Below are positions 4,679 to 40,893 of a stretch of 45,883 nucleotides of DNA, piece by piece. The stretch comes from Candidatus Poseidoniales archaeon (lineage in GTDB: Archaea > Thermoplasmatota > Poseidoniia > Poseidoniales > Poseidoniaceae). A program made the translations under genes and the position numbers. The notes below the pieces were generated by a model, which did no database searches, was not told where the DNA came from, and saw only the letters and a program-made list of their open reading frames with translations. The DNA is taken from contig QQRW01000028.1 in assembly GCA_003602605.1 (NCBI GenBank), positions 169,129 to 215,011 of the forward strand, in the 5' to 3' direction. The stretch's first letter is position 1. Each line of letters opens with the position of its first letter.

Positions 4679-7600
4679 ATGCAAAACGAATTTTCCAACG
4701 GGCGCGGCATAATGTTCGCACTTTTTCTCATCATGGTCCTGTCTCCAATGGGCCCAATGGCAGAAGTATTCGTAGGTTCTGCAGATGCTGCAGGCGTATC
4801 TCGCCACATCTATGAGTTCAGTGATGGTACGACAGAACATGTGGCATTGTATCAAGGTGCGAATCCTGATATTGGGGCAGAAGTAAGCCTACCCAAAGGT
4901 GCACATGTCACTGAAGTTTCCATGACACTCTCTGGAGCATCTGCTACTGGTTGGAGCCAGTCGGTAACTGACGACCGTGATGAATGGATTGCAGGTGACG
5001 CTTCATCAACCGATTCGCGCAGCGGAGAACTGAGTCTTGATTTGTCGAACAGTTCGACAAGCTTCTTTGCGCATGGGACTGATGAAGCAATAAATCCAAC
5101 ATCAGACGCATGGCTGGACAACGGTTCATACGCTGTACGCCAACCACACACATCCAACTCAACTGAAAGTAGGTTTTCTCAACAAGTTCTCAAGTCCTCA
5201 AACGCATTGATGAAACAAAGTCAAGGTGCAGTTCTCAAGCATCATGACTGGTTGTTTATGTCGACATGGAGTACTTCCACATTCCAAAACATCGTTCACA
5301 GGCTTTATCCAAACAATGCTACCAAAGAATCAGTCATTACATTAGACCAAGCACAGTGCACTCTACCAAATCTACACTCATCTTCATACTATGCAAACTA
5401 TGGATTCCGTGATTGGACGATTACCGACGATGAACGTATGTTTGCCATATTGTCTGGATACAAATACCACTATTCCTCCTCAGCCCCTACGCAATATCAC
5501 CGTGTTTTGGAAATGGATATCTCAAGGGATGATGTTTGGACATGTATAGACTCTTATGATGTATCTCCGCAGTATTCAGATTACACTGCGATTGCATACG
5601 ACCGCACGACGGAAGACGTTTGGATTGTACACAATGCGCAACGAAGAATCGTCCCTTACACATTCGGTGATGCTCCTGATGGGACATACACTCGTGGAGA
5701 CGATATGTATTCGTTTTCATCTTCATCTGGCAGCTCTTGGGAGTGTGGCAAAACCGGACAACAAGTTCGTGGGTTGGAAGTGAATGAAACGACGTTCTTC
5801 ATGCGTTGCCAAAAAGGCTCGACGAGTCAAGACAAGGACCAACTGGAAGCATGGACGGTCTCTGGATCATCCACTTCTCTCGTCCCTCAGTCCGGAACAC
5901 GACTCCTCTCAGCACTCGGTTATGGACTCCAATTTGATGGTTCACGTTTTGTCACAATCGATTGTGGGTATTCGACTTGGTCGTCATCGACGCTTTACTA
6001 CCGAGAATACGGCACTGGATGGCAATTCAAGACAACACCTGCGCCAGGCACAACTACTTGGCTTGGACCAATGATTAGTTCGAACGAACCGGTTCTTGCT
6101 GCAAACATGCAGACCTACTGGTCAGCCGCATCGATTGGCGACCGTGTTGATTACTGGATTTCCGCCGATAACGGAACGCACTGGGAGCCAGTGACTTCCA
6201 ATTCCACGATTCACTTTGATTATCCCGGTAAGGAACTCATTTGGAAAGCCCAACTCATTGGCTCAACTGCAGTTTCATGGTGGGTCGATGTCGAGTATGC
6301 TACAGAATACATAACGTCCGGTAGTTGGACTTCTCCGCCTCAAGTCACCGGCACCAAAGTCGGCAAAGTTCGACCCAATTGGCAGGCAGATGTTCCAGCA
6401 GGAACATCTGTTCTTGTACAGGTTTCAAACGATAACGGCTCGTCATGGTTACCAGCACTTAACAATCAAGAAGTCAGTTTCCCTTCAACCGAAGCAGGCG
6501 ATACCATTCGCTACGCAATCAGTATGACTTCATCTGATGCCTCTATTACCCCACTCATCGATTCAGTGACCATGGAGTACGAAGAAGGCTATCCAGACCG
6601 ACCCAAGATTGACATAGGCAACGACCTCGTTTGGGATTGGGAGTCGGTACTTTTCCTCAATGAATCATCGGTCATTGCTAGTGATATGTCCCTCGTTAAT
6701 GCTGAAGTGAAATCCCAGCCCACCCTTGTTCAAGCGTTTAATTCATTTATCCCTCAGAACGGTGATGGTGATGTTACCATTCCTATAGCGATCAAGGCAG
6801 CAACACCGGGGCGTGTTAAAATCTCCAACATTGATATTGCGTACAAGTTGCAAACCCGAGCAGTCGATGCTTCACTCGAAGGTGGGATGATTTCCCCCGA
6901 TGGAGTGATGAGAAATTTGCATGTTCGTGTAGCGCCTGGTGATGATGTCGACCGTGTGACGAGTGCACTTGTTGCTCTCAACAATTCATACGGGGAAAAC
7001 CCGGCTTTTGAATGGGAGCGCGGTGATACATGTTCAGTTGTTAGCGATGCAGGTGGTATTGTTCAGTTTGATGTAGCGAACTGCACTTCCGTGACGGACT
7101 CCACTGGTCAAGTTACAATTCGAATGCCAATGTCAGTAAATTGGACATGGGATGATGAAAGTGAATTGCAGGCACTGATTTCAGTCGATGATGAATTGGG
7201 CCAGGCGGTCGCTGCTTGGGAGACCGATTCTTTGGACATGGTTGTGGAAAACGATATCCAACTTGACGGACTTCGAGTGTTTGAAGAAACAGGCAGAGAA
7301 TTGTATTCTCTCGACTGGGTGCGTGGCGGATATCAGATTTCGTTTACCGGCGTGATACACTTCCAAAACTCTCAACTTACTCCGTTAGGTGGTCAGTTTG
7401 CCCTACGGATTTTGGGTCAAAACGTGACCTATGATGGTGACCCCATCGGCGAACCAGTCGAACTTGCCCGTGAACAGAATCCTGCATTTGGTGCCTTCAA
7501 CATCACCATCACTTCTCCAATGGAGTCAACACCTGGGGGTATGGTATTCTATGTGGAAGCAACTGATTTGAAAAACGGTTCAATGTTTACCAACCCGGGC

Positions 7601-10225
7601 TACAATACTATTCGCCTAGTATTGGATGGGAATTCGCCTCTTGTTCTAGGTTCAACCCCTGAAGATGGCTCTGAACGTCATGCTGGACCACCTGCACCGG
7701 GAGGCCAAGCTCTCAGCTTCGTGATTCAAGACTCAGTCGATCCACCGAGCCAAATTACTCTCAACTACTGGATTGGATGCAAGGCAAGTGAGGCAATCGG
7801 TTGCAGCGATTACAATTTCGATGGTCTACCAAACGCAAATGAGTACGAAATGAAGGTCCTCAATTCACCTGATACTCAAACTGGTGGATTGAACATCTTT
7901 GATGGCCTTATCGATGATTCGATGCTCGAACATGGCCAACTCGTTTCCTACTTTATCACAGGAAAGGATGCTCAAGATAACGCTATTGCGATGGGTGGTG
8001 GGCCCGTTTGTCCAGATAGTAATACTGCATGCGGTTATGTTCCTGGTGAGACAGAACCGGATTGGGACAATGATTTGGGAACATATCGTATACGTGTAGA
8101 GTTTGAACCCAAATTGGATTTAGACAATTCCACTATTCTTGGACATGATGATTCTTCACCACTCCATCCAGGAATCCCATATACTGCTCAAATTGTTCTT
8201 TCTGACCGCAACGGATGGGAAGACATTCAGTACATTCAATTGGCACTTGGTGGAGACTTTGAAGACGATGAGAGTTCACTTTTCATCTCCTTGACAAAAG
8301 GCCATGATGGTATGCCTATCGCTGTCATGGAATCCGGCTCTGCAAACATCGCCGTTTCAAACCTCTATTCAAGTGTGAGTCTCGATGAAAACGATAATTC
8401 CATCATCAAGATTCTTGCTCGATTCCAACTCACATGGACGTTCCCTGAAGTCTTTGATACCGACGGACAAAGTTTGGTGATTCCAAAGATTCTAGTCACG
8501 GACTTGCCATGTAACGATATTGAAGTCACGCCATGTTTCGAAGCCAAGGAAGGTTTGGGTAACGATGCCTGGAGCCTTGACAATGATTTCCGATTTGACA
8601 CCATGGAAGGTCACATACGTGCAGTTGAACTCCGTGACGGGACAAACCACTACAATTCTGAATTCGAAGAAACTCTCATTGGTGCGGGGCAAGCGCTTCG
8701 TGTCAACGGTCGAATCCTTTTCTCTGAAGATGAAACCCCTGCGCCTCCGGGTGCATTTGATGTCGTATTTGGTGACTATGACAACACATGGACGACCTCG
8801 ACCCGTGAGGACGGCGAGTTCAGTCTCGATTTATTGATCCCATCCGTTCCATCCGGTCATCTTGATTTACAGTTAGGCCTCGGTGATTTGCCAGGTTTCG
8901 CAATGGATGAAACCTCTATCACGCAACGTGTTCGTTTGGCTGTGGACAGTTCACGACCAACAATCGCAGCCATCACTCTTGATGAAGTCACGACGGGTTC
9001 ACCACTCTCGATTGGTGCCTGTGGTGACTTGCTTGTGATGCTTGAAACACTCGATGACTACGGCTTCGATATGGACGAACCAGCAGTTCTTCACTACAGG
9101 GTTCGTGCTGGCGAGGCTGAAATATCAAGAGGCAGTGTTCCGCTTCCGGATACGACTCCATTCGGTGAGCAGTTCTTTTGGACCGGTAGCCTCGATTTGA
9201 CAGATGCGGGAGCAACGACTCTTCTGCCTTCGTACATGGTGGATGTTTGGGTCTCCGGGTCTGATTCCGCAGGTAATCCATTTGATACAATTGGCAACTC
9301 CATCAATGAACCGATTGCATCATGGTCATTGGCCTTGCTTGGGCCAAGTATCGACCTTAACGCTGCAACCAGCAGTTTCTCTTGGGACGACCCAAGTCCA
9401 ATCGCACAACAATCTGTGAACCTTGATTTCGAAGTTCGGAACATTGGTGGTAAGGGGGATGTTGCTTTGGTTCTACAGCGTGCTGTTGAAGGTGGATTTT
9501 GGGAGGATGTAGCGCGAGTTGACATTGTTGCCACGGCTGGCGGCGATCTCACCGGTTCTCTGCCAACTGTAGCAAATGCAGGTGTTGGTGAAAGTATTGA
9601 ATTCCGCCTCCTTGTTTTGGTTGATGAGGTTGAAATGGACCGCGCCTCGCTCGACCCACTGTTCATCAAAGAGCAGACGATTCGTGACGGAGAAGCATTG
9701 GCAAAACAAGCTCAAGAAGGGACATTCAGTATTGTTCTCTACATTATTGCACTGCTTTCGCTGAGCATGGCTATGTATCTCCTAGTGATGAATCGACGAA
9801 TCCGTGAAGGCGACTTAGATGCTGGTGCTGAGGACCAAACTGACGAAGTGCTCGAAGATCTTGAAAAGACGAAACAAATTCCATCAATTGATTCAAATCT
9901 GCCTGCTCCAACTGGTTTGGCATCTGGAGTGCCTCAACCGAATCCATCGGTTGTCTTCAGCCCAAATGTTGAGCCAACACCCGCCTCTCTGTCAGCTTCC
10001 CTTTCTGCATCTAAACCTGGTTCTTCTTCACCAGGTCTGGTTCAAAACATCACTTACAACATCACGGACAGTGCGGTGGGAGCAATTCCGACTACGAATT
10101 CAGTTAATGACGGTATGCCGGCTAGAGCTCCACCACCTCTACCTCCTACCGGTCTACCTGAAGGATGGACGCTCGATCAATGGAATCATTTCGGTTGGCA
10201 ATATATTGAATCAATGAAGAAGTGA
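4679..10225 (+). CDS. Giant type I membrane-anchored surface protein with Pro-rich cytoplasmic tail and C-terminal GWTxxQW motif
   Basis: N-terminal hydrophobic signal (MFALFLIMVLSPMGPMAEVFV), long beta-rich ectodomain, TM near C-terminus (FSIVLYIIALLSLSMAMYLLVMNRRIREG), tail ending PPPLPPTGLPEGWTLDQWNHFGWQYIESMKK. Confidence 0.85.
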   Translation: MQNEFSNGRGIMFALFLIMVLSPMGPMAEVFVGSADAAGVSRHIYEFSDGTTEHVALYQGANPDIGAEVSLPKGAHVTEVSMTLSGASATGWSQSVTDDRDEWIAGDASSTDSRSGELSLDLSNSSTSFFAHGTDEAINPTSDAWLDNGSYAVRQPHTSNSTESRFSQQVLKSSNALMKQSQGAVLKHHDWLFMSTWSTSTFQNIVHRLYPNNATKESVITLDQAQCTLPNLHSSSYYANYGFRDWTITDDERMFAILSGYKYHYSSSAPTQYHRVLEMDISRDDVWTCIDSYDVSPQYSDYTAIAYDRTTEDVWIVHNAQRRIVPYTFGDAPDGTYTRGDDMYSFSSSSGSSWECGKTGQQVRGLEVNETTFFMRCQKGSTSQDKDQLEAWTVSGSSTSLVPQSGTRLLSALGYGLQFDGSRFVTIDCGYSTWSSSTLYYREYGTGWQFKTTPAPGTTTWLGPMISSNEPVLAANMQTYWSAASIGDRVDYWISADNGTHWEPVTSNSTIHFDYPGKELIWKAQLIGSTAVSWWVDVEYATEYITSGSWTSPPQVTGTKVGKVRPNWQADVPAGTSVLVQVSNDNGSSWLPALNNQEVSFPSTEAGDTIRYAISMTSSDASITPLIDSVTMEYEEGYPDRPKIDIGNDLVWDWESVLFLNESSVIASDMSLVNAEVKSQPTLVQAFNSFIPQNGDGDVTIPIAIKAATPGRVKISNIDIAYKLQTRAVDASLEGGMISPDGVMRNLHVRVAPGDDVDRVTSALVALNNSYGENPAFEWERGDTCSVVSDAGGIVQFDVANCTSVTDSTGQVTIRMPMSVNWTWDDESELQALISVDDELGQAVAAWETDSLDMVVENDIQLDGLRVFEETGRELYSLDWVRGGYQISFTGVIHFQNSQLTPLGGQFALRILGQNVTYDGDPIGEPVELAREQNPAFGAFNITITSPMESTPGGMVFYVEATDLKNGSMFTNPGYNTIRLVLDGNSPLVLGSTPEDGSERHAGPPAPGGQALSFVIQDSVDPPSQITLNYWIGCKASEAIGCSDYNFDGLPNANEYEMKVLNSPDTQTGGLNIFDGLIDDSMLEHGQLVSYFITGKDAQDNAIAMGGGPVCPDSNTACGYVPGETEPDWDNDLGTYRIRVEFEPKLDLDNSTILGHDDSSPLHPGIPYTAQIVLSDRNGWEDIQYIQLALGGDFEDDESSLFISLTKGHDGMPIAVMESGSANIAVSNLYSSVSLDENDNSIIKILARFQLTWTFPEVFDTDGQSLVIPKILVTDLPCNDIEVTPCFEAKEGLGNDAWSLDNDFRFDTMEGHIRAVELRDGTNHYNSEFEETLIGAGQALRVNGRILFSEDETPAPPGAFDVVFGDYDNTWTTSTREDGEFSLDLLIPSVPSGHLDLQLGLGDLPGFAMDETSITQRVRLAVDSSRPTIAAITLDEVTTGSPLSIGACGDLLVMLETLDDYGFDMDEPAVLHYRVRAGEAEISRGSVPLPDTTPFGEQFFWTGSLDLTDAGATTLLPSYMVDVWVSGSDSAGNPFDTIGNSINEPIASWSLALLGPSIDLNAATSSFSWDDPSPIAQQSVNLDFEVRNIGGKGDVALVLQRAVEGGFWEDVARVDIVATAGGDLTGSLPTVANAGVGESIEFRLLVLVDEVEMDRASLDPLFIKEQTIRDGEALAKQAQEGTFSIVLYIIALLSLSMAMYLLVMNRRIREGDLDAGAEDQTDEVLEDLEKTKQIPSIDSNLPAPTGLASGVPQPNPSVVFSPNVEPTPASLSASLSASKPGSSSPGLVQNITYNITDSAVGAIPTTNSVNDGMPARAPPPLPPTGLPEGWTLDQWNHFGWQYIESMKK

Positions 10226-10234
10226 GTTGTCGAC

Positions 10235-10687
10235 ATGTCCGGTGAAGATGCATCCGCAGTGGATGGAATGGTGACGCTGCAAGAACGGATGGTCAACTTG
10301 ATCAACCAACTCAATATGCCACTCATTGAGGTCAGTCTCGTACTTAGTAAACACATTGCAGGCCTATCTCGTTCGCTCGATGAGCACATCAATGCAACGC
10401 AGCAACAGTTTCCCGAGACGGTAACCCATCCATGGCCTATTCAGAACGGTGGCGGCGAGGATTCAAGCTTCCAGTTTGATTTGGAAAAAATCTTCAAGAT
10501 TATCGACGAGGACAGAATGGATATCTTAGCGACACTTATTCGTGTCACTTTGGTTGAGATTGATGCCTCAATTGCAGAGGGGCTTCTCGCTTTACGGCCT
10601 TGGGAGGCGCTTTCAAGAACACAGTTGTCGAACGCTAAGAGCCCTGGGCAATTGTTTTCACCTCTCGAGATTCCTGATGAGTGGTAA
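10235..10687 (+). CDS. Hypothetical protein, mostly helical, 150 aa
   Basis: ORF 10 bp downstream of the surface protein, same strand, no competing ORF of better quality. Confidence 0.65.
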   Translation: MSGEDASAVDGMVTLQERMVNLINQLNMPLIEVSLVLSKHIAGLSRSLDEHINATQQQFPETVTHPWPIQNGGGEDSSFQFDLEKIFKIIDEDRMDILATLIRVTLVEIDASIAEGLLALRPWEALSRTQLSNAKSPGQLFSPLEIPDEW

Positions 10688-10723: not shown

Positions 10724-11515
10724 ATGGAACGACTTCACCGCATTGGCTTCGGTTTGCTTGTTCTCCTCATGATGCCGGCACTTTCTGGTTGTCTTGGCTC
10801 CGATGGTACTCTTGGGATTCCAGAACGCAAAGGAATTCCTGGGGGATTGACCCTTGCGTGCTTGGACAGTTCGAAATACACTTCGATGACCGTCGAAATT
10901 GATTATGAGCCGGGTTATCTGCCAGAACCTACGTCAACAGACATGCTAAAACAACGACTTGAATCTGTTTGTGACAAACCTAACGGTATCAATTTTCAAT
11001 TTACGGAGACAGATTTTTCCAACGATGTGACTTGGTCTGCTAATGATGTCCGTAATTTGGGTGACGAAGCCAAGGCTGTCCCACCTCAATCAGGTTCGAC
11101 GCTGACCTGGCAGATCTTATTCCCTGCTGGAACGTACGAAGATACCAGCGTTCTGGGTGTCGCAGTCGATGCTTCGACGGTTGCGATTTTCAAAGACTCT
11201 ATCGACGATGCGGAGAATATATTCCGTAGGCCTTCTGCAGAGAAGATTGAAAACAGTGTTCTAATACATGAGGTCGGACACCTCCTGGGATTAGTCAATT
11301 TGGTGTACACCTCTCCAGCTGACCACGAAGACAGTTCACATCCAGGACACTCAAACAATGAAGATTCCGTCATGTATTGGGCGATTGAATCATCAAGCAT
11401 TGCGAATTTCTTTGACAATGATTTACCAACAGAATTTGACACTGACGATCTCAATGACTTGTCCGGACTCGCAGATGGAAGCATCGAGTGCACTGATCAA
11501 CTCTGGCGACCTTAA
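10724..11515 (+). CDS. Putative lipoprotein zinc metallopeptidase (metzincin-like)
   Basis: Signal peptide with lipobox (LLVLLMMPALSGCLG); HEVGHLLGLVN zinc-binding helix and downstream SVMYW resembling a Met-turn. Confidence 0.7.
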   Translation: MERLHRIGFGLLVLLMMPALSGCLGSDGTLGIPERKGIPGGLTLACLDSSKYTSMTVEIDYEPGYLPEPTSTDMLKQRLESVCDKPNGINFQFTETDFSNDVTWSANDVRNLGDEAKAVPPQSGSTLTWQILFPAGTYEDTSVLGVAVDASTVAIFKDSIDDAENIFRRPSAEKIENSVLIHEVGHLLGLVNLVYTSPADHEDSSHPGHSNNEDSVMYWAIESSSIANFFDNDLPTEFDTDDLNDLSGLADGSIECTDQLWRP

Positions 11516-28430: not shown

Positions 28431-30860
28431 TCATATATCCAAGTCATCGTCAATTGCTACACCAATGTTTTGTGGCTGAACAGGAACAGATGGCTGTAGT
28501 TGATGAGGGGTTGGTGAATGTAAGGCCGACGCATTCGTTCCTCGGGAAGGAGGTGACCCATTTTGGATATCGGCCAAGAGTGAATCTGCGGAGGTGAGTA
28601 AGTCGTTGGAACTGTGATGCTCAAGCACAGTCGTAGCGGCTTTCGTTAGCGATGGATCAACCGGTGCACTTGCTTCTTTGTATGCCCCTGAGCGTTTCTG
28701 AAACGCTTGTTTAAAATGCTCAGGGTTGACTTTCACCGATGATTCCTGTACCATTTTTGGCTCACTTGGCGCAAATCGATTCATCCAGTCTCCGGCCTCT
28801 TCTTGTGGTTTTGGCTGATTCAGAGCATCCATCTCCATCTGCACTGCAGTGCGTTGATTACGTGCGACTATGGATTTGTAAATGACGACTCCGGAAACGA
28901 GTACTGCTCCAATCATCAGCGACCAGGCCTTGAGGATCTCAACACCGGTTGATATCATTCCAAATACGTCGAGTGATTCTTCTTCGACCTCCTCTTGCCA
29001 AGGTGTACCGGTGTAATCTGCACTCGAGGTGTGTACAAACTCAGTACTCGGTTGAAATTGTGAACGCACGGTTGTGTTGACCCAAACCGTTCCATTGCTC
29101 GGCTGGTCTTGCGGCAAATCAATCCAAGCCCGAACAGTAAAGTTGTATCCGATGGGTATATCATTCACCTCAAACGATCTTAGATATTCCACTCCTTGCT
29201 CATAAACCGCAATGTTTGGAGGTAAGAAGGACATCGGCGTCGAATGTGATGATTGCAATTGAACAAGTAAACCGTCTGCTGTGTTCCCTTCATTTCTCAA
29301 GGTCATGGCGATTGACAGTCTTCCATTTGAATCAGTCTCCTCAACAATATCGGTGAAGTTCCATAGAATGACTGGCGCGATTTTTACTGGAATACGTGTG
29401 ATGCCTACTGTGGTATCAGAGTTGAACAGGTAGGTTTCTACAACTACTTCTCCAAGTTCAAATGCCAATGCCGATGCGTTTGCAGTTATCTCGATCAATG
29501 TGAGATTTACATACTCGCCAGGTTGCAATTCAGTCGCAGTTTGTACCAATTGGGCTGATACAAAATCCGGAACTTGCTTTATCGAATATTCAAAAGAGTC
29601 AACAGCATTGCCTCCGTTGAACACTTCTATATCAGCGTTGCAACTCTCCGTAGGTAACAGAGATTGGCATGTGTCTGTCCGTAGTTCAACGCTTCCGCTT
29701 CGTTCCCAACCAATTGATGCGCCGATATCGACAATCCGCGTGTTTTGAATTGCTCCACCAGCAAACACACGAAGTCGGATATCGATTTCACTCGAGTATT
29801 CCATTGGAGCTTGGAAACCGATTTTTATTGTTCTCGATTCATTCGGCTGTAGTATGACCTCTTCAAGTCCACCAAAGATTGCCATTGTCCATCCGTTGAT
29901 TGCTATTCGGTCAAAGTTTGGAATGTCGGGGATTGGTTCTCCCTGTGCATCAATCGCTTCGAGTGTGATATTGAGGTAATTTGGAGAATTGCCAGTGTTT
30001 CTCACATCGACGGAGACTCTCTCTACGCCGCCCGGTTCAATGACTGCATCATCACCTACCTCGTCTATTGAGGCATTCTTGAATTCGTTCATGAGCATGT
30101 CAAAAGACCATTGTACGATTCCACCGTCGATGCCAGATACCGCACTGATTTGGAATCGTGGGCCGTTGTTATACAGAGGTGATCCATCGATGACTGAGGG
30201 TACATCCACCCATAAATAGACATAAGAAACTGTGTCCTGGCGAATGGTTTCATAGGCGTTTAAACCATTGGTTGTATTCATTGTCCATCCCCAATTCCAC
30301 TCGGATGCCGTGTAGAGATTGAAGGTGACATCATCATCTAAGGTGGCGTTGTTTGTGATGTTCATCGCCACAGAAGTCCTCGTGTTAGGGGATACGATGA
30401 ATGAGGATACACCTGTTGCACCAAAATTGAGATTTGAATACGGTGTGACTCGAGCTTGAAAGGTTTCGGTTTGGCTCCAATTCATATCGTTGAGTGATGT
30501 GAACAGTATCGATAGGTTGTAAACAGCATATCCTGCATCAAGATCTGCTGATAGATTGAATTTAACTTGTCTCAAGTATCCGCCTTCAAGCGTTTTACTA
30601 AGCGGCAGTCCGGTTATTGTCAAATTCTCAACAGGATCAACTAAATCAAAATTGAATGTATCAACTTGATCACCTTGATTGTGGAGTGTGAACAAAACTT
30701 CAATCAGTTCTCCACGATGTACTGTTACTTGGTTAAGTCCAATCACGTCAAGTTTCGTATCGCGAGCCTCAACTGTTGATGTTTGGCCGGCAACACCCAC
30801 GAGTGGAACAAGAATATGCATCAGTATGAGCATCCCAACGAGCACACTGCGCATAAACAC
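28431..30860 (-). CDS. Membrane-anchored surface protein with CARDB/NEW3-like repeats
   Basis: Signal peptide (MRSVLVGMLILMHILVPLVGVAG), repeated VxNxGNxxDxFxxxL-type segments, C-terminal TM (AWSLMIGAVLVSGVVIYKSIV) and low-complexity cytoplasmic tail. Confidence 0.82.
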   Translation of the reverse strand: MFMRSVLVGMLILMHILVPLVGVAGQTSTVEARDTKLDVIGLNQVTVHRGELIEVLFTLHNQGDQVDTFNFDLVDPVENLTITGLPLSKTLEGGYLRQVKFNLSADLDAGYAVYNLSILFTSLNDMNWSQTETFQARVTPYSNLNFGATGVSSFIVSPNTRTSVAMNITNNATLDDDVTFNLYTASEWNWGWTMNTTNGLNAYETIRQDTVSYVYLWVDVPSVIDGSPLYNNGPRFQISAVSGIDGGIVQWSFDMLMNEFKNASIDEVGDDAVIEPGGVERVSVDVRNTGNSPNYLNITLEAIDAQGEPIPDIPNFDRIAINGWTMAIFGGLEEVILQPNESRTIKIGFQAPMEYSSEIDIRLRVFAGGAIQNTRIVDIGASIGWERSGSVELRTDTCQSLLPTESCNADIEVFNGGNAVDSFEYSIKQVPDFVSAQLVQTATELQPGEYVNLTLIEITANASALAFELGEVVVETYLFNSDTTVGITRIPVKIAPVILWNFTDIVEETDSNGRLSIAMTLRNEGNTADGLLVQLQSSHSTPMSFLPPNIAVYEQGVEYLRSFEVNDIPIGYNFTVRAWIDLPQDQPSNGTVWVNTTVRSQFQPSTEFVHTSSADYTGTPWQEEVEEESLDVFGMISTGVEILKAWSLMIGAVLVSGVVIYKSIVARNQRTAVQMEMDALNQPKPQEEAGDWMNRFAPSEPKMVQESSVKVNPEHFKQAFQKRSGAYKEASAPVDPSLTKAATTVLEHHSSNDLLTSADSLLADIQNGSPPSRGTNASALHSPTPHQLQPSVPVQPQNIGVAIDDDLDI

Positions 30861-35913: not shown

Positions 35914-38900
35914 ATGCAGGGCACTCGACAACCATTGCTCATGCTCGTTGTGCTTCTGCTTACATCGGCTAGCCCGTTGTTAATGGATGACTTTTCATCA
36001 TCACATTCGCTTGCTAGCGACGAACCAAAACAACTTTCAGAAGCTGAACGCCTCGACTTGGCACAGCAATTGTGGTCTCCGCTCGAGTCCTCAAGTATTT
36101 TTGCTACCGATCTTCAAGATTCAAGCGGTATTTTGCGACTTCAAGCAGGTGAATATGACCCGCTGTTGGCTGACGGCCCAGTCCTCAACAAAGCCTTCAT
36201 CGATTCTCAAGACCCTTCTCAAACCGGACTGGCTATGCTTCAACTGCACGAACACGACGGGGCCGTTCTTGATTCACTCTCGAAAACATACGGCCTTACT
36301 CCCCTTGATTTCATCGCAGATGAAGGATGGCTTGTTCGATTACCAGAACCACCTATGGCTTCCTTGGAATTGCTCCAATCTGACGAACGTGTCCGCTGGG
36401 CAGGACCACAACACCCAGGCTGGAGGATTCACAGCGAGCTGCTCTCAGTTTCAGGACACACGCATCTCGCCCTTGTTCCATCTTCTGATTTGGCACTCGG
36501 TGGTCTTGAGACCTTGAGCCTCGACTTGCTGCAAATGGGTGCATCTGAAGCATGGTGCGGAGTTGGACTGTGCGAAGTTAACTTCCATTCAAAACTACAG
36601 TCAACATTGCTTAACAACATCATGCATGATGGACGTATCATTTGGACTGAACCGACTCATGGACTGACTCTACACAATGCGCTGGCCGGTGGTATTGTCG
36701 GTACTGATGGCGTTGCAGCGAATGCTTCTTTCACACTTGACGGCTCTGGAGAAACCATTGCAATTGCCGATACCGGCGTTGATCAGGACCATCCAGACAT
36801 CTCTGGCAGAGTGGCAGGTGTATTCACGAACTTTGGTCTTGACTCCTCTCCCAAGGATTCGAATACAGGACATGGCACTCACATCGCACTCTCGGTACTT
36901 GGAGACGGTACTGGCGACTCAACCGCAGAAGGAATCGCTCCATCTGCAAACCTTGTCATGTATGCGCTTGAACACGACCCAACCGGCGTATTTGGAAGAC
37001 TTGGCTCAATTTACGACTTACTCAATGATGCGGAGCAACGAACTGCTCGCATTTCTGTTAACGCATGGGGCTCGAATGGCAACTACGGTCACTACACTGC
37101 AGACTCTCGTTCGGTCGACCTGCTTGTTCACCAAAAGAATACAGTCCTGCCTTTGTTTTCTGCGGGTGATCGAGGTGCCAGTGGCCCATCACAAGTTGCT
37201 GCACCATCGACAGGAAAGAATGTTCTTTCGGTGGGCACATCACAGACCGGTGCATTAAGCGGTACCGTCGCAAACATCTCCAGCCTCGGACCGAGTCTTG
37301 ATGGACGAATAAAGCCAGATATTGTTGCTCCAGGCATTGACATTTGCTCTGGTCTGGCTGAAGAGGCCAAGTCTCCCGGCGGCCCTTCATGTGCGAATGG
37401 AGTTCATGCGGACGGAACAACAAATCTCTACATGACGCTTTCAGGTTCATCACATGCGACTGCAATTGCAGGTGGCACGACCGCTCTCGTCAGAGAGTTC
37501 CTTCGTGAGCAAGTGAACATCAATTCACCTTCCGCATCACTCATCAAAGCAGCCGTCATCAACGGAGCTACAGACCTTGGAACTCCGGATATCCCCAATT
37601 CAGAGGAAGGGTGGGGGCAGGTCAATTTAGAACGTACTGTTCTGCCTATGGATGGCTCGTTTGCATTGGATACCTTCTTTGATCACAATAAGGAATTGAC
37701 TGCAGGATTTGGATTACTCTATTCATTTGATCTTGACCCGAGTCATGGTGTTGACATAACGCTTGCATGGTCGGATGTAGAAGGAAGTGCCAACGCCGCT
37801 CAGTCCTCTGCTCGGCTCGTTAACAACCTTGATCTGGTCATGGTCGACCCTGACGGTAATGAATGGCTCGGTAACGATTTCTTAAACGGGGTTTCGACAA
37901 CCGGTGGAAGCGCAGATACGCTCAACAATGTAGAGCGAATCAAGGTCGCTCCTGGCGTTCTCACCACTTCGGGTCAGTGGCAAATCAAAGTTCTTCACTC
38001 CGGTGGCCTCTCACAGAGATTCAGCCTCATTGTTGTAGCTGATGCAACATCAATTCCACAAGCTGATTTGGCCACATACGATGGAAGCATTGTACCATCA
38101 TCGGCAGAACCTCTCAAAGACGATCTCATTACCCTTCAGCTCGGTTGGATTAACCAAGGTACCCTCTCGACCGGTTCATTTCGTGTTACTCTTGAAGATT
38201 TGACAACCGGTCAGACGTTGTTCGATGCGGACAGATCTGCCCTTGAACCAGGAGAGATAGATTCGTTCTTGTTGCAACACCAATTCACAACTACCGGTAC
38301 ACATTCAATGCGCTTGAGTATCGACACCCTCGACCAAGTGAGCGAGATAAACGACGGAGTCTCGGGGGTTGACAATAATATTTGGGAGCAGGACATCGAA
38401 GTGACAGCACTTGGTGTTCGAGTTGTCGCACTTGACGATACGGGTTCAGCACCGACCTCTGCAGAGGACCGTGCATTGTCTGCAGTTCACACGTTTGATG
38501 TCCTTAATGCCTCATCGATTGATATCCCTATTCATATTCTGCACGAAGGGACTGGAGAGCAGCCTGTGACCATATCGGTTACGAATGTCCAAAAACCTCA
38601 ACCAGGCCGTCCTGATTTCTTACTTGCACCTGAGGATTCGTGGTCGAAAACAGTATCCGAAATTGGACCATATGTTTTACAAGGCCAAGGCGAGACGGGT
38701 GATTTCAAAGAACTCAATGTTACTCTCGTCAACAATTTCGTCGACCTCTCAAATCAAGATTCGCCTCGGTACGCTCGTGCTGGAACATTTGTTGTAGACA
38801 TTACTGCTCGCTACCAATCACAACCAACGGTCTCTCACACTCAGCGAATTACAATCATCGTTCCACAAGTCACGGATGTTAACATTGGAGCAGCGGGTAT

Positions 38901-40893
38901 CACTGGTCTTTCGGCAGCACCCGGTGAATCTACGGGTTTCTCAATTTCTGTCATGAACATCGGAAACACTCCGGCGCAGTATTCAGTCTCGTGTGAGTCT
39001 GCGAATAGATGGCAGATTCAACTCGGAAATTCCAATTCATCTACCTTGGAATTTGAACCTCTTAACATTAAGGAATCCTTGCCAATGCTCATTCAAATAT
39101 GGGTTCCACCAGTTTCCAATGGAGTTCCAGAAGCCGGTTCGACCGATACAGTGACCTGCCAAGTGAATTCCCCAACTGACCCAACACTCAATTTCACTCA
39201 GTCTGTGGAAGTGTTGGTTTTGGCACAGGAATCCTTTGACAGCGATCTTTACGATGACATAGGGCCCATAGGCCCCTCTTCCTCGAATCGAATTATTATG
39301 GTTGACACCGCTCAACAAGTCAATTTGAATCTAACCGTAGAAAACACGGGTAACAAGGAAATCGACTTGGATGTTAAAATCCAACCAAGTAACCCACTTT
39401 GGCCTATCGAGGTTACCTACATGGGCCAGCAAAACAGCCGTCAAATCTCTCTTACATTACTCGGTGGTGAAGTGGCAACAGTCCATTTCGTCATTGGTGT
39501 CCCTCCAGTAGCGGAGGAGGGTGAAGTCAACAACTTCGTTATTCGAACTGAAAAATCAGCTCAATCCTTCGTTTCCAATACGACGGTATTGAAGGTACGA
39601 GACGACCTCTCCATGGATCTCTTTGGGCCCGAATCTGGCGTCATTGAAACAGTCATTTCAACGGACTTTTCGTTTGGTGAATTTACTGTCGTCAATACCG
39701 GTAATGCAGCTCTGACGCTGAATTGGAGCAATGGCTTAGCAGCAGATGGATGGGTTGTTGGTTACGCGAATCCGAGCACATACATTGAACCTCGAGAGGA
39801 GCGAACAGTCCGCCTGGGTTTCATACCTCCTACTAATACTCCTGTCACTGAAAAGGCCTTTGAACTGGTAGCAACAGTTACAGGATTTAGCAACGGTAGG
39901 TCCGTGCAGAACTCCATTACGGTAGATGTGGCAGTCGTCGAGTCTGTATTTGCGAACTTCACGGTTCAAGACCCCACAGTTGCACCGTTTTCGTCCGTTG
40001 CACGTGGTGTCGCTGCAACTCAAAATATTGTGATCCGTAACGACGGCAATGTCCCTCTCAGCGGGGATCTTCTGTCTCAAGTTCTGGATCAAGAAGGAAA
40101 TGTTTCTTCAGATTGGACGCTTGTCTGTTCGCCTCTTTCGCTTGAAAACCTCGGAGTTGGTGAAGAACGCATTGTTTCACTGGAACTTACTCCAAGTACA
40201 GATGCGATGAAAGGGCTGCATTTTTCGACATTGAGTCTCACTTCGAATGGTGCTGTAATCGGTACACTTTCTATCGAGACGACCGTGGAGTCCGCTACGG
40301 GGACTGAAGGGTTCTTGGGTGGATTGCCGATTTATGTCAGTGTTCCTCTTGTCAGCATCATACTGCTTGCAGCAATTGTTGTTGCACTTCGACTGAAGAA
40401 GAGCGGTGAACTCACCGACTCGGGTGAAGAGCTGGTTGCGCCTGATGCCTTTGTCAATCCCGACCATCTTGGAACTCGACGCAGTGATGCACTCGATATC
40501 GGTCACGCAGTTAATGAACTTGCAAGCGGCGAGGTTTCCTCAGAAGAAATAGCAGCTGCTCTGGCCCAATCCCTTGACATGCCATCATCGGTGCCTCAAG
40601 CGATTCCACCGGTGGGATCACCGCCTGCAGGATTACCACCTGTTGGAATGCCACCTCGAGGTCTTCCCCTACCTGTGCCTGCAGGAATGCCGCCTGCTGG
40701 ATTGCCGCCGAAGTCCCTGCCAAAACTTCCTTTGCCGATGCCGGCTCAACCGATACCGGCCCCAATGCCAGCCCCTGCCCCTGCAACCCCCATACCTGCG
40801 ACTGGCCCTCCACTACCACCGAGCGGTTTGCCGAACGGGTGGACCATGGAACAATGGCAACACTACGGCCAGCAATGGTTAGACAGGCAGTGA
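35914..40893 (+). CDS. Membrane-anchored subtilisin-family (S8) peptidase with Pro-rich cytoplasmic tail and GWTxxQW C-terminus
   Basis: Asp IAIADTGVDQDHPD, His GHGTHIALS, Ser LSGSSHATAIAGG; post-catalytic beta domain; NEW3/CARDB-like repeats; TM (GGLPIYVSVPLVSIILLAAIVVALRLKK); tail ends GPPLPPSGLPNGWTMEQWQHYGQQWLDRQ. Confidence 0.92.
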   Translation: MQGTRQPLLMLVVLLLTSASPLLMDDFSSSHSLASDEPKQLSEAERLDLAQQLWSPLESSSIFATDLQDSSGILRLQAGEYDPLLADGPVLNKAFIDSQDPSQTGLAMLQLHEHDGAVLDSLSKTYGLTPLDFIADEGWLVRLPEPPMASLELLQSDERVRWAGPQHPGWRIHSELLSVSGHTHLALVPSSDLALGGLETLSLDLLQMGASEAWCGVGLCEVNFHSKLQSTLLNNIMHDGRIIWTEPTHGLTLHNALAGGIVGTDGVAANASFTLDGSGETIAIADTGVDQDHPDISGRVAGVFTNFGLDSSPKDSNTGHGTHIALSVLGDGTGDSTAEGIAPSANLVMYALEHDPTGVFGRLGSIYDLLNDAEQRTARISVNAWGSNGNYGHYTADSRSVDLLVHQKNTVLPLFSAGDRGASGPSQVAAPSTGKNVLSVGTSQTGALSGTVANISSLGPSLDGRIKPDIVAPGIDICSGLAEEAKSPGGPSCANGVHADGTTNLYMTLSGSSHATAIAGGTTALVREFLREQVNINSPSASLIKAAVINGATDLGTPDIPNSEEGWGQVNLERTVLPMDGSFALDTFFDHNKELTAGFGLLYSFDLDPSHGVDITLAWSDVEGSANAAQSSARLVNNLDLVMVDPDGNEWLGNDFLNGVSTTGGSADTLNNVERIKVAPGVLTTSGQWQIKVLHSGGLSQRFSLIVVADATSIPQADLATYDGSIVPSSAEPLKDDLITLQLGWINQGTLSTGSFRVTLEDLTTGQTLFDADRSALEPGEIDSFLLQHQFTTTGTHSMRLSIDTLDQVSEINDGVSGVDNNIWEQDIEVTALGVRVVALDDTGSAPTSAEDRALSAVHTFDVLNASSIDIPIHILHEGTGEQPVTISVTNVQKPQPGRPDFLLAPEDSWSKTVSEIGPYVLQGQGETGDFKELNVTLVNNFVDLSNQDSPRYARAGTFVVDITARYQSQPTVSHTQRITIIVPQVTDVNIGAAGITGLSAAPGESTGFSISVMNIGNTPAQYSVSCESANRWQIQLGNSNSSTLEFEPLNIKESLPMLIQIWVPPVSNGVPEAGSTDTVTCQVNSPTDPTLNFTQSVEVLVLAQESFDSDLYDDIGPIGPSSSNRIIMVDTAQQVNLNLTVENTGNKEIDLDVKIQPSNPLWPIEVTYMGQQNSRQISLTLLGGEVATVHFVIGVPPVAEEGEVNNFVIRTEKSAQSFVSNTTVLKVRDDLSMDLFGPESGVIETVISTDFSFGEFTVVNTGNAALTLNWSNGLAADGWVVGYANPSTYIEPREERTVRLGFIPPTNTPVTEKAFELVATVTGFSNGRSVQNSITVDVAVVESVFANFTVQDPTVAPFSSVARGVAATQNIVIRNDGNVPLSGDLLSQVLDQEGNVSSDWTLVCSPLSLENLGVGEERIVSLELTPSTDAMKGLHFSTLSLTSNGAVIGTLSIETTVESATGTEGFLGGLPIYVSVPLVSIILLAAIVVALRLKKSGELTDSGEELVAPDAFVNPDHLGTRRSDALDIGHAVNELASGEVSSEEIAAALAQSLDMPSSVPQAIPPVGSPPAGLPPVGMPPRGLPLPVPAGMPPAGLPPKSLPKLPLPMPAQPIPAPMPAPAPATPIPATGPPLPPSGLPNGWTMEQWQHYGQQWLDRQ

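Follow-up and report, generated by a model that had tools for sequence, protein, structure and literature searches.

Unrelated single-pass surface proteins of Poseidoniales archaea share a conserved C-terminal module that is a candidate cytosolic docking tag

The question raised by this locus is why two large surface proteins of a Poseidoniales archaeon, whose genes lie about 30 kb apart in the window (the whole stretch of 45,883 nucleotides analysed here), should end in the same short peptide. A first-pass annotation had proposed that the two proteins, W1 and the subtilase W2, carry a shared tail on unrelated ectodomains. We find the tail on both, at coordinates that were right to the base (Table 1), and BLASTP detects nothing in common between the two ectodomains at E<=0.01. 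W1 closes with ...ARAPPPLPPTGLPEGWTLDQWNHFGWQYIESMKK, and its stop codon (10223-10225) directly follows tail copy 1. In W1, hydropathy shows a hydrophobic segment at the N-terminal end and a single C-terminal transmembrane (TM) segment, and a Pfam search found no domain. Further along the same strand, the window encodes a 263-aa predicted lipoprotein (10724-11515, +) with a GCLG lipobox, a HExxHxxGxxH-like metalloprotease signature, HEVGHLLGLVN, and a weak Matrixin match (E=0.001).

Table 1. Positions in the window of the two tail copies, the proteins that carry them and a neighbouring gene
Feature	Position	Strand	Basis or remark
W1, 1848-aa single-pass surface protein carrying tail copy 1	4679-10225	+	ORF translation
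W1 C-terminal TM segment, residues 1685-1703, IVLYIIALLSLSMAMYLLV	9731-9787	+	Hydropathy
W1 linker, Pro/Ser/Ala, predicted cytosolic and disordered	9788-10129	+	
Tail module copy 1, PPPLPPTGLPEGWTLDQWNHFGWQYIESMKK, extreme C-terminus of W1	10130-10222	+	Sequence and profile searches; AlphaFold2 helix with ordered Pro segment
Gene for a 150-aa helical protein	10235-10687	+	No Pfam match; single copy in sampled genomes
W2, 1659-aa subtilase-type surface protein carrying tail copy 2	35914-40893	+	Peptidase_S8, residues 277-568, E=6.5e-38
W2 C-terminal TM segment, residues 1473-1491	40330-40386	+	Hydropathy
Tail module copy 2, GPPLPPSGLPNGWTMEQWQHYGQQWLDRQ, closes W2 (stop follows)	40804-40890	+	Profile match; AlphaFold2 helix over TMEQWQHYGQQWLD

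When the 31-aa W1 tail was used as a query against the 2.02-Mb genome, nine further genuine copies were recovered (E 5e-10 to 4e-5), and a profile built from these tails (A1) returned the same ten copies (all E<=6e-15), followed by a gap to E=0.23 for the next match. The likeness of the tails is therefore not due to chance, and the profile search that the first-pass annotation had suggested reaches far beyond two close paralogs. Seven positions of the profile are invariant (P5, G8, P10, W13, Q17, W18, and G22). Each of the ten copies closes or nearly closes its ORF behind a predicted TM helix and a Pro/Ala-rich linker, and together they are spread over about eight unrelated ectodomain types on carriers of 381 to 1848 aa. 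The Pfam matches in the ectodomains include subtilase, PKD with CARDB, beta-propeller, CARDB/NEW3 Ig folds, TSP3, and a cadherin-like domain; W1 and the carriers C55 and C37 have no Pfam ectodomain match. When the carriers were compared without their tails, a clear mutual ectodomain match was present in two pairs only, C16a and C16b (34% identity) and C24 and C39, which match through TSP3-like repeats. An eleventh protein, C32, with a LamG and PA14 ectodomain, has two divergent tandem tail copies at its C-terminus, LPAGWSHEQYRVWLEGEMPSGWTLLQWMQF, and its orthologues retain the diverged tandem form. A C-terminal tandem of two divergent GW[ST]xEQ helix motifs characterises the LamG/PA14 surface protein family (L019, L249, and L250).

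The architecture is equally regular beyond this genome. We collected 177 distinct terminated ORF sequences with the core of the tail from this and other Poseidoniales genomes, some of which are pieces of one gene, and every one contains exactly one core. The restriction of matches to C-termini behind a TM segment and a Pro-rich linker, which the first-pass annotation had suggested checking, holds for 174 of the 177; in the remaining three, short ORF pieces of 94-105 aa, no TM segment lies upstream. Between TM segment and core lie 34-148 residues (median 75); Pro makes up 17% and Ala 11% of the linker. From core end to stop there are 8-23 residues in 146 ORFs, 40 residues in 25 ORFs of the C16a family, whose extension ends in LLDDLDL, and 63-82 residues in five ORFs; one ORF crosses an assembly gap. 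A similar ending, AIDDDLDI, was seen on an 809-aa single-pass surface protein in the window (28431-30860, -) that has no tail. There are only two real cases of such DDLD-type ends in the genome, and they are perhaps another short cytosolic C-terminal signal.

On which side of the membrane does the tail lie? By hydropathy, a hydrophobic segment at the N-terminus and a TM segment towards the C-terminus are present in every carrier of the genome, and with a signal segment and one C-terminal TM segment the tail is therefore predicted to face the cytosol. Known archaeal C-terminal tags of the CTERM type likewise end large surface proteins, so that the tail might be taken for an extracytoplasmic anchoring or sortase-type sorting signal. 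We regard this as extremely improbable, given the predicted inside location and the long stretch between TM segment and core, whereas in a CTERM tag only a few basic residues follow the hydrophobic segment.

Among the regions of the carrier proteins that were measured, the tail is the most conserved part. Mean identity within orthologue families is 67-81% for the tail; the adjacent ectodomain reaches 35-61%, the TM segment 27-48%, and the linker 13-48%. In the consensus, of about 29 residues, a Pro-rich segment ([PA]PxLPxxGLPxGW) leads into a short helix (TxEQWxxYGQxYLD). An AlphaFold2 model of a short tail peptide, made with 73 tails, has one helix (28-43); its mean pLDDT is 92 for residues 21-40 and about 83 for the Pro segment ahead of them. 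A model of copy 2 with its linker is less confident: the same helix appeared at 67-80 with pLDDT about 85, and the linker scored lower. On a helical wheel the invariant Trp and Gly would fall on one face together with the conserved Tyr residues, as if packing on the prolines. The modular reading of the first-pass annotation would have failed had the motif fallen inside a known globular domain, and it does not: Pfam and NCBIfam hold no model for the tail (hmmscan at E<=10 found no family for ten module I tails, as we call this form), a PDB sequence search gave nothing significant (best E=0.09, to WW domains), and Foldseek against the PDB found no match at E<=10.

The tail is a property of one archaeal order. 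In a survey of the phylum 127 of 390 genomes were positive, and the positives among the genomes listed were all in two families, Poseidoniaceae and Thalassarchaeaceae, as assigned by the names of the matching genomes. In a survey of the class with a wider profile (A2), 318 of 319 Poseidoniales (Marine Group II) genomes were positive, the sole negative being 67% complete, with 3-14 copies per genome in Poseidoniaceae and 1-7 in Thalassarchaeaceae. The two surveys gave no credible tail in the phylum outside Poseidoniales. In the sister family f3 (21 genomes) six borderline matches (E 0.003-0.04) were considered as divergent tails but turned out to be short or wrong-frame stretches, and in outgroups within the phylum the PKD surface proteins matching the C16b ectodomain have no tail and stop shortly after the TM segment. 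With order-wide presence on the one hand and a tail-less sister family and tail-less outgroup proteins on the other, it looks as though the tail was gained at the base of the order Poseidoniales. In a scan of a genome collection, the best 80 of 296 relatives carry Poseidoniales or marine euryarchaeota labels with one exception, a 'Rhodobiaceae' bin that is evidently misbinned, its contig carrying the W1 gene and its usual neighbour. Viral spread was considered and rejected, as viral contigs gave three unrelated internal matches only and a phage tblastn gave none.

The carriers that we found in Thalassarchaeaceae are the orthologues of C21x, C55, W2, and C24, with ectodomain identity of about 23-36% (53% for C24). 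Several genomes of this family have a single tail copy on one protein, and in the single-copy genomes of genus g2 the retained carrier is the C21x orthologue. These genomes bear on the possibility that the tails bind each other and so cluster different surface proteins without a dedicated partner. A short, aromatic, predicted ordered tail, always on a flexible tether and present on many co-resident carriers per cell, would suit such self-association; nevertheless, hetero-clustering is impossible where there is one copy, and in the analogous SHOCT domain oligomerisation was unsupported in initial experiments (PMC3581485). We therefore judge self-association to be unlikely.

An indication that the tail is an exchangeable unit comes from the orthologues of W1 itself. 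In three Thalassarchaeaceae genera these proteins (42-44% identity, about 1770 aa) lack the module I tail, and in its place they have a [WY][STN]DE[QM]LxxxGWTxxQ[IV] module (module II, WTDEQLxxQGWTxEQI), while the orthologue from genus g13 of Poseidoniaceae (L248) has the usual module I tail. In seven of the eight Thalassarchaeaceae orthologues an EF-hand-like loop, DxDGNxYLxxxELE, lies beside module II in the predicted cytosolic tail, in varying order (L247, L276-L280, and L282; for example DEDGNGYLRQSE); its match to Pfam EF-hand_6, at E=0.004 only, is below the family cut-off. Module II, in the form W[ST]DEQLLxxGWTxEQIxxYR, is also C-terminal, after a TM segment, in other single-pass proteins (L266, L267, and L270-L274), and in a further set of single-pass proteins (L253-L260 and L269) it lies at the N-terminus or close to it (MWTDEQL...), with a TM segment and then a C-terminal collagen-like ectodomain behind it. 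Thus module II would always be on the predicted cytosolic side, whichever way the protein is oriented. Neither Pfam nor NCBIfam has a match to it above cut-off, SAM_SMF coming closest (E=3e-4). The two modules have GWTxEQ in common, and hhalign aligned them with a score of 20.3 and a probability of 55%, 100 column-permuted controls all scoring lower (best 17.7); a common origin is possible, not established.

These arrangements also bear on a different proposal, namely that the tail is a biogenesis signal read during or after membrane insertion, for targeting, pole sorting or quality control of the C-terminus, and plays no part once the protein is mature. Its strictly terminal position on large secreted-type proteins would fit, as would the fact that not all surface proteins are marked, the 809-aa protein of the window being one without it. 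Against it, a C-terminal tail emerges last, when the TM segment has already been made, the module II counterpart occurs at N-termini too, and the swap to an EF-hand form suggests a role in the mature protein. We consider a biogenesis signal improbable, to much the same degree as self-association; either of the two would be expected to leave the same sequence pattern as docking.

If a partner binds the tail, its gene might be sought beside those of the carriers. The gene for the 150-aa helical protein lies downstream of W1 in 34 of 34 loci, and in our sample it is restricted to the order (8 of 8 Poseidoniaceae and 13 of 14 Thalassarchaeaceae, 21 of 22 Poseidoniales in all, and 0 of 5 in f3). 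It was rejected as a general tail partner: in four of the five Thalassarchaeaceae loci examined W1 is absent and the gene lies behind the TSP3 surface protein or its remnant, so that the adjacency to W1 is one of synteny. No neighbour gene is common to all carriers, each carrier family having its own conserved neighbours, and examination of these conserved neighbours revealed no binding partner; the co-occurring cytoplasmic partner family that the first-pass annotation had proposed looking for thus did not emerge among them.

Two of the neighbours are worth noting as a lead. The gene lonB follows the carrier C21x in 24 of 24 loci and a thermosome gene follows C55 in 30 of 30 loci, in both families in each case, with some loci overlapping the same gene. 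C21x also has a CPPC thioredoxin-like stretch near its N-terminus (the C21x/C55 loci are L017, 2073-7499, and L015, 372-5572). The adjacencies could be read as a sign that the tail is a regulated degron or a docking site for a chaperone or protease such as the membrane protease LonB, the more so as C21x is the carrier retained in the single-copy genomes of genus g2. Yet they may be plain synteny, which is enough to explain them, and the neighbours of the other carriers are unrelated. LonB-type proteases are widespread in archaea, unlike the tail, which is restricted to the order. This reading seems to us very unlikely.

The reading we hold to be moderately probable is that the tail serves surface proteins as an exchangeable docking tag in the cytosol, bound by a shared partner. 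We favor it because a short, terminal, predicted-folded module is found on unrelated surface proteins, behind a fast-evolving linker, and is exchanged in orthologues. The proposal of a modular C-terminal tail behind the TM segment, predicted to be cytoplasmic, is thus strongly supported by the architecture, the unrelated ectodomains and the tail swap, and a docking, sorting or signalling role is plausible. The computations show the module itself, where it occurs and at which position, that it is modular, and that in orthologues a second module of the predicted cytosolic side replaces it; topology and fold are predictions here, and the binding by a shared partner is what we infer. Under the docking reading, an autonomous mini-domain of about 29 residues would cap the cytosolic end of single-pass surface proteins throughout Poseidoniales, the long disordered Pro/Ala-rich linker would serve as a tether, and a cytosolic or cortical partner common to the carriers would bind the mini-domain and hold, cluster or place them in the membrane, or couple them to the cell interior. 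It is possible, if doubtful, that there is a wider adaptor system throughout the order which gathers the major single-pass surface proteins via GWTxEQ-type terminal mini-domains, and in which one receptor is switchable by lineage between the plain module and a second module with a calcium-sensing EF-hand.

Marine Group II archaea, as yet uncultured, rank among the most abundant archaea of the surface ocean. Our search of the open literature found neither a description of the tail nor an account of how the giant surface proteins of these archaea are ordered from within the cell, and genomic studies of Poseidoniales discuss adhesion, flotillin, and thrombospondin genes with no such motif (PMC6461757, PMC6336850). 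With an order-wide tag, a class of surface proteins can be recognised from sequence alone; the tag also predicts that they have an intracellular partner in common, and it could be used as bait. If true, a cytosolic tag that unrelated surface proteins of archaea have in common, that can be exchanged between orthologues and that in some is accompanied by a cytosolic EF-hand would be unexpected to specialists.

It is useful to compare the tail with known systems. CTERM regions consist of a signature motif, a hydrophobic segment and a short basic end, and are processed by a membrane protease (PMC3237569, PMC11980579). The tail resembles archaeal PGF-CTERM/archaeosortase and bacterial GlyGly-CTERM and MYXO-CTERM in being a short C-terminal region common to many unrelated surface proteins of a lineage. 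In contrast, its signature comes after the TM segment and a long linker, not before, on the predicted cytosolic side, with no processing signature ahead of the TM segment; no CTERM model in NCBIfam matched, and it was rejected as a member. SHOCT domains, of about 30 residues, are mostly C-terminal, fused to many different domains and of unknown function (PMC3581485). Length and C-terminal placement on many domain types are similar, whereas SHOCT is widespread in bacteria and the tail, within the phylum surveyed, is restricted to one order and always on a single-pass surface protein. Membership of SHOCT (PF09851) was also rejected, the hmmscan at E<=10 giving no SHOCT for module II either.

As for folds, the WW domain forms a sheet of three strands, is about 35 residues long and has two Trp residues and a Pro at the C-terminal end. 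The LPxGW start of the tail recalls it, as in the weak PDB matches, but the tail stops before the second and third strands and the second Trp, and homology was rejected, with a match that is not significant, no Pfam match and a predicted helix. Pancreatic polypeptide and the Trp-cage are miniature polyproline-helix folds of about 30 residues, in which a Pro-rich segment is followed by an aromatic-faced helix. The predicted layout of the tail is similar, with no match to them in PDB sequence or Foldseek searches. With regard to function, integrin tails and PDZ ligands are motifs in the cytosolic tails of eukaryotic receptors that are bound by adaptors. We claim no relation in sequence; the resemblance is one of working, a conserved cytosolic terminal signal on different single-pass receptors. 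The tail would share with them a cytosolic location on single-pass surface proteins, as predicted by hydropathy, and it does share the occurrence of the same signal on unrelated ectodomains. The adaptor system considered above, should it exist, would be an archaeal counterpart of the adaptors of eukaryotic receptor tails.
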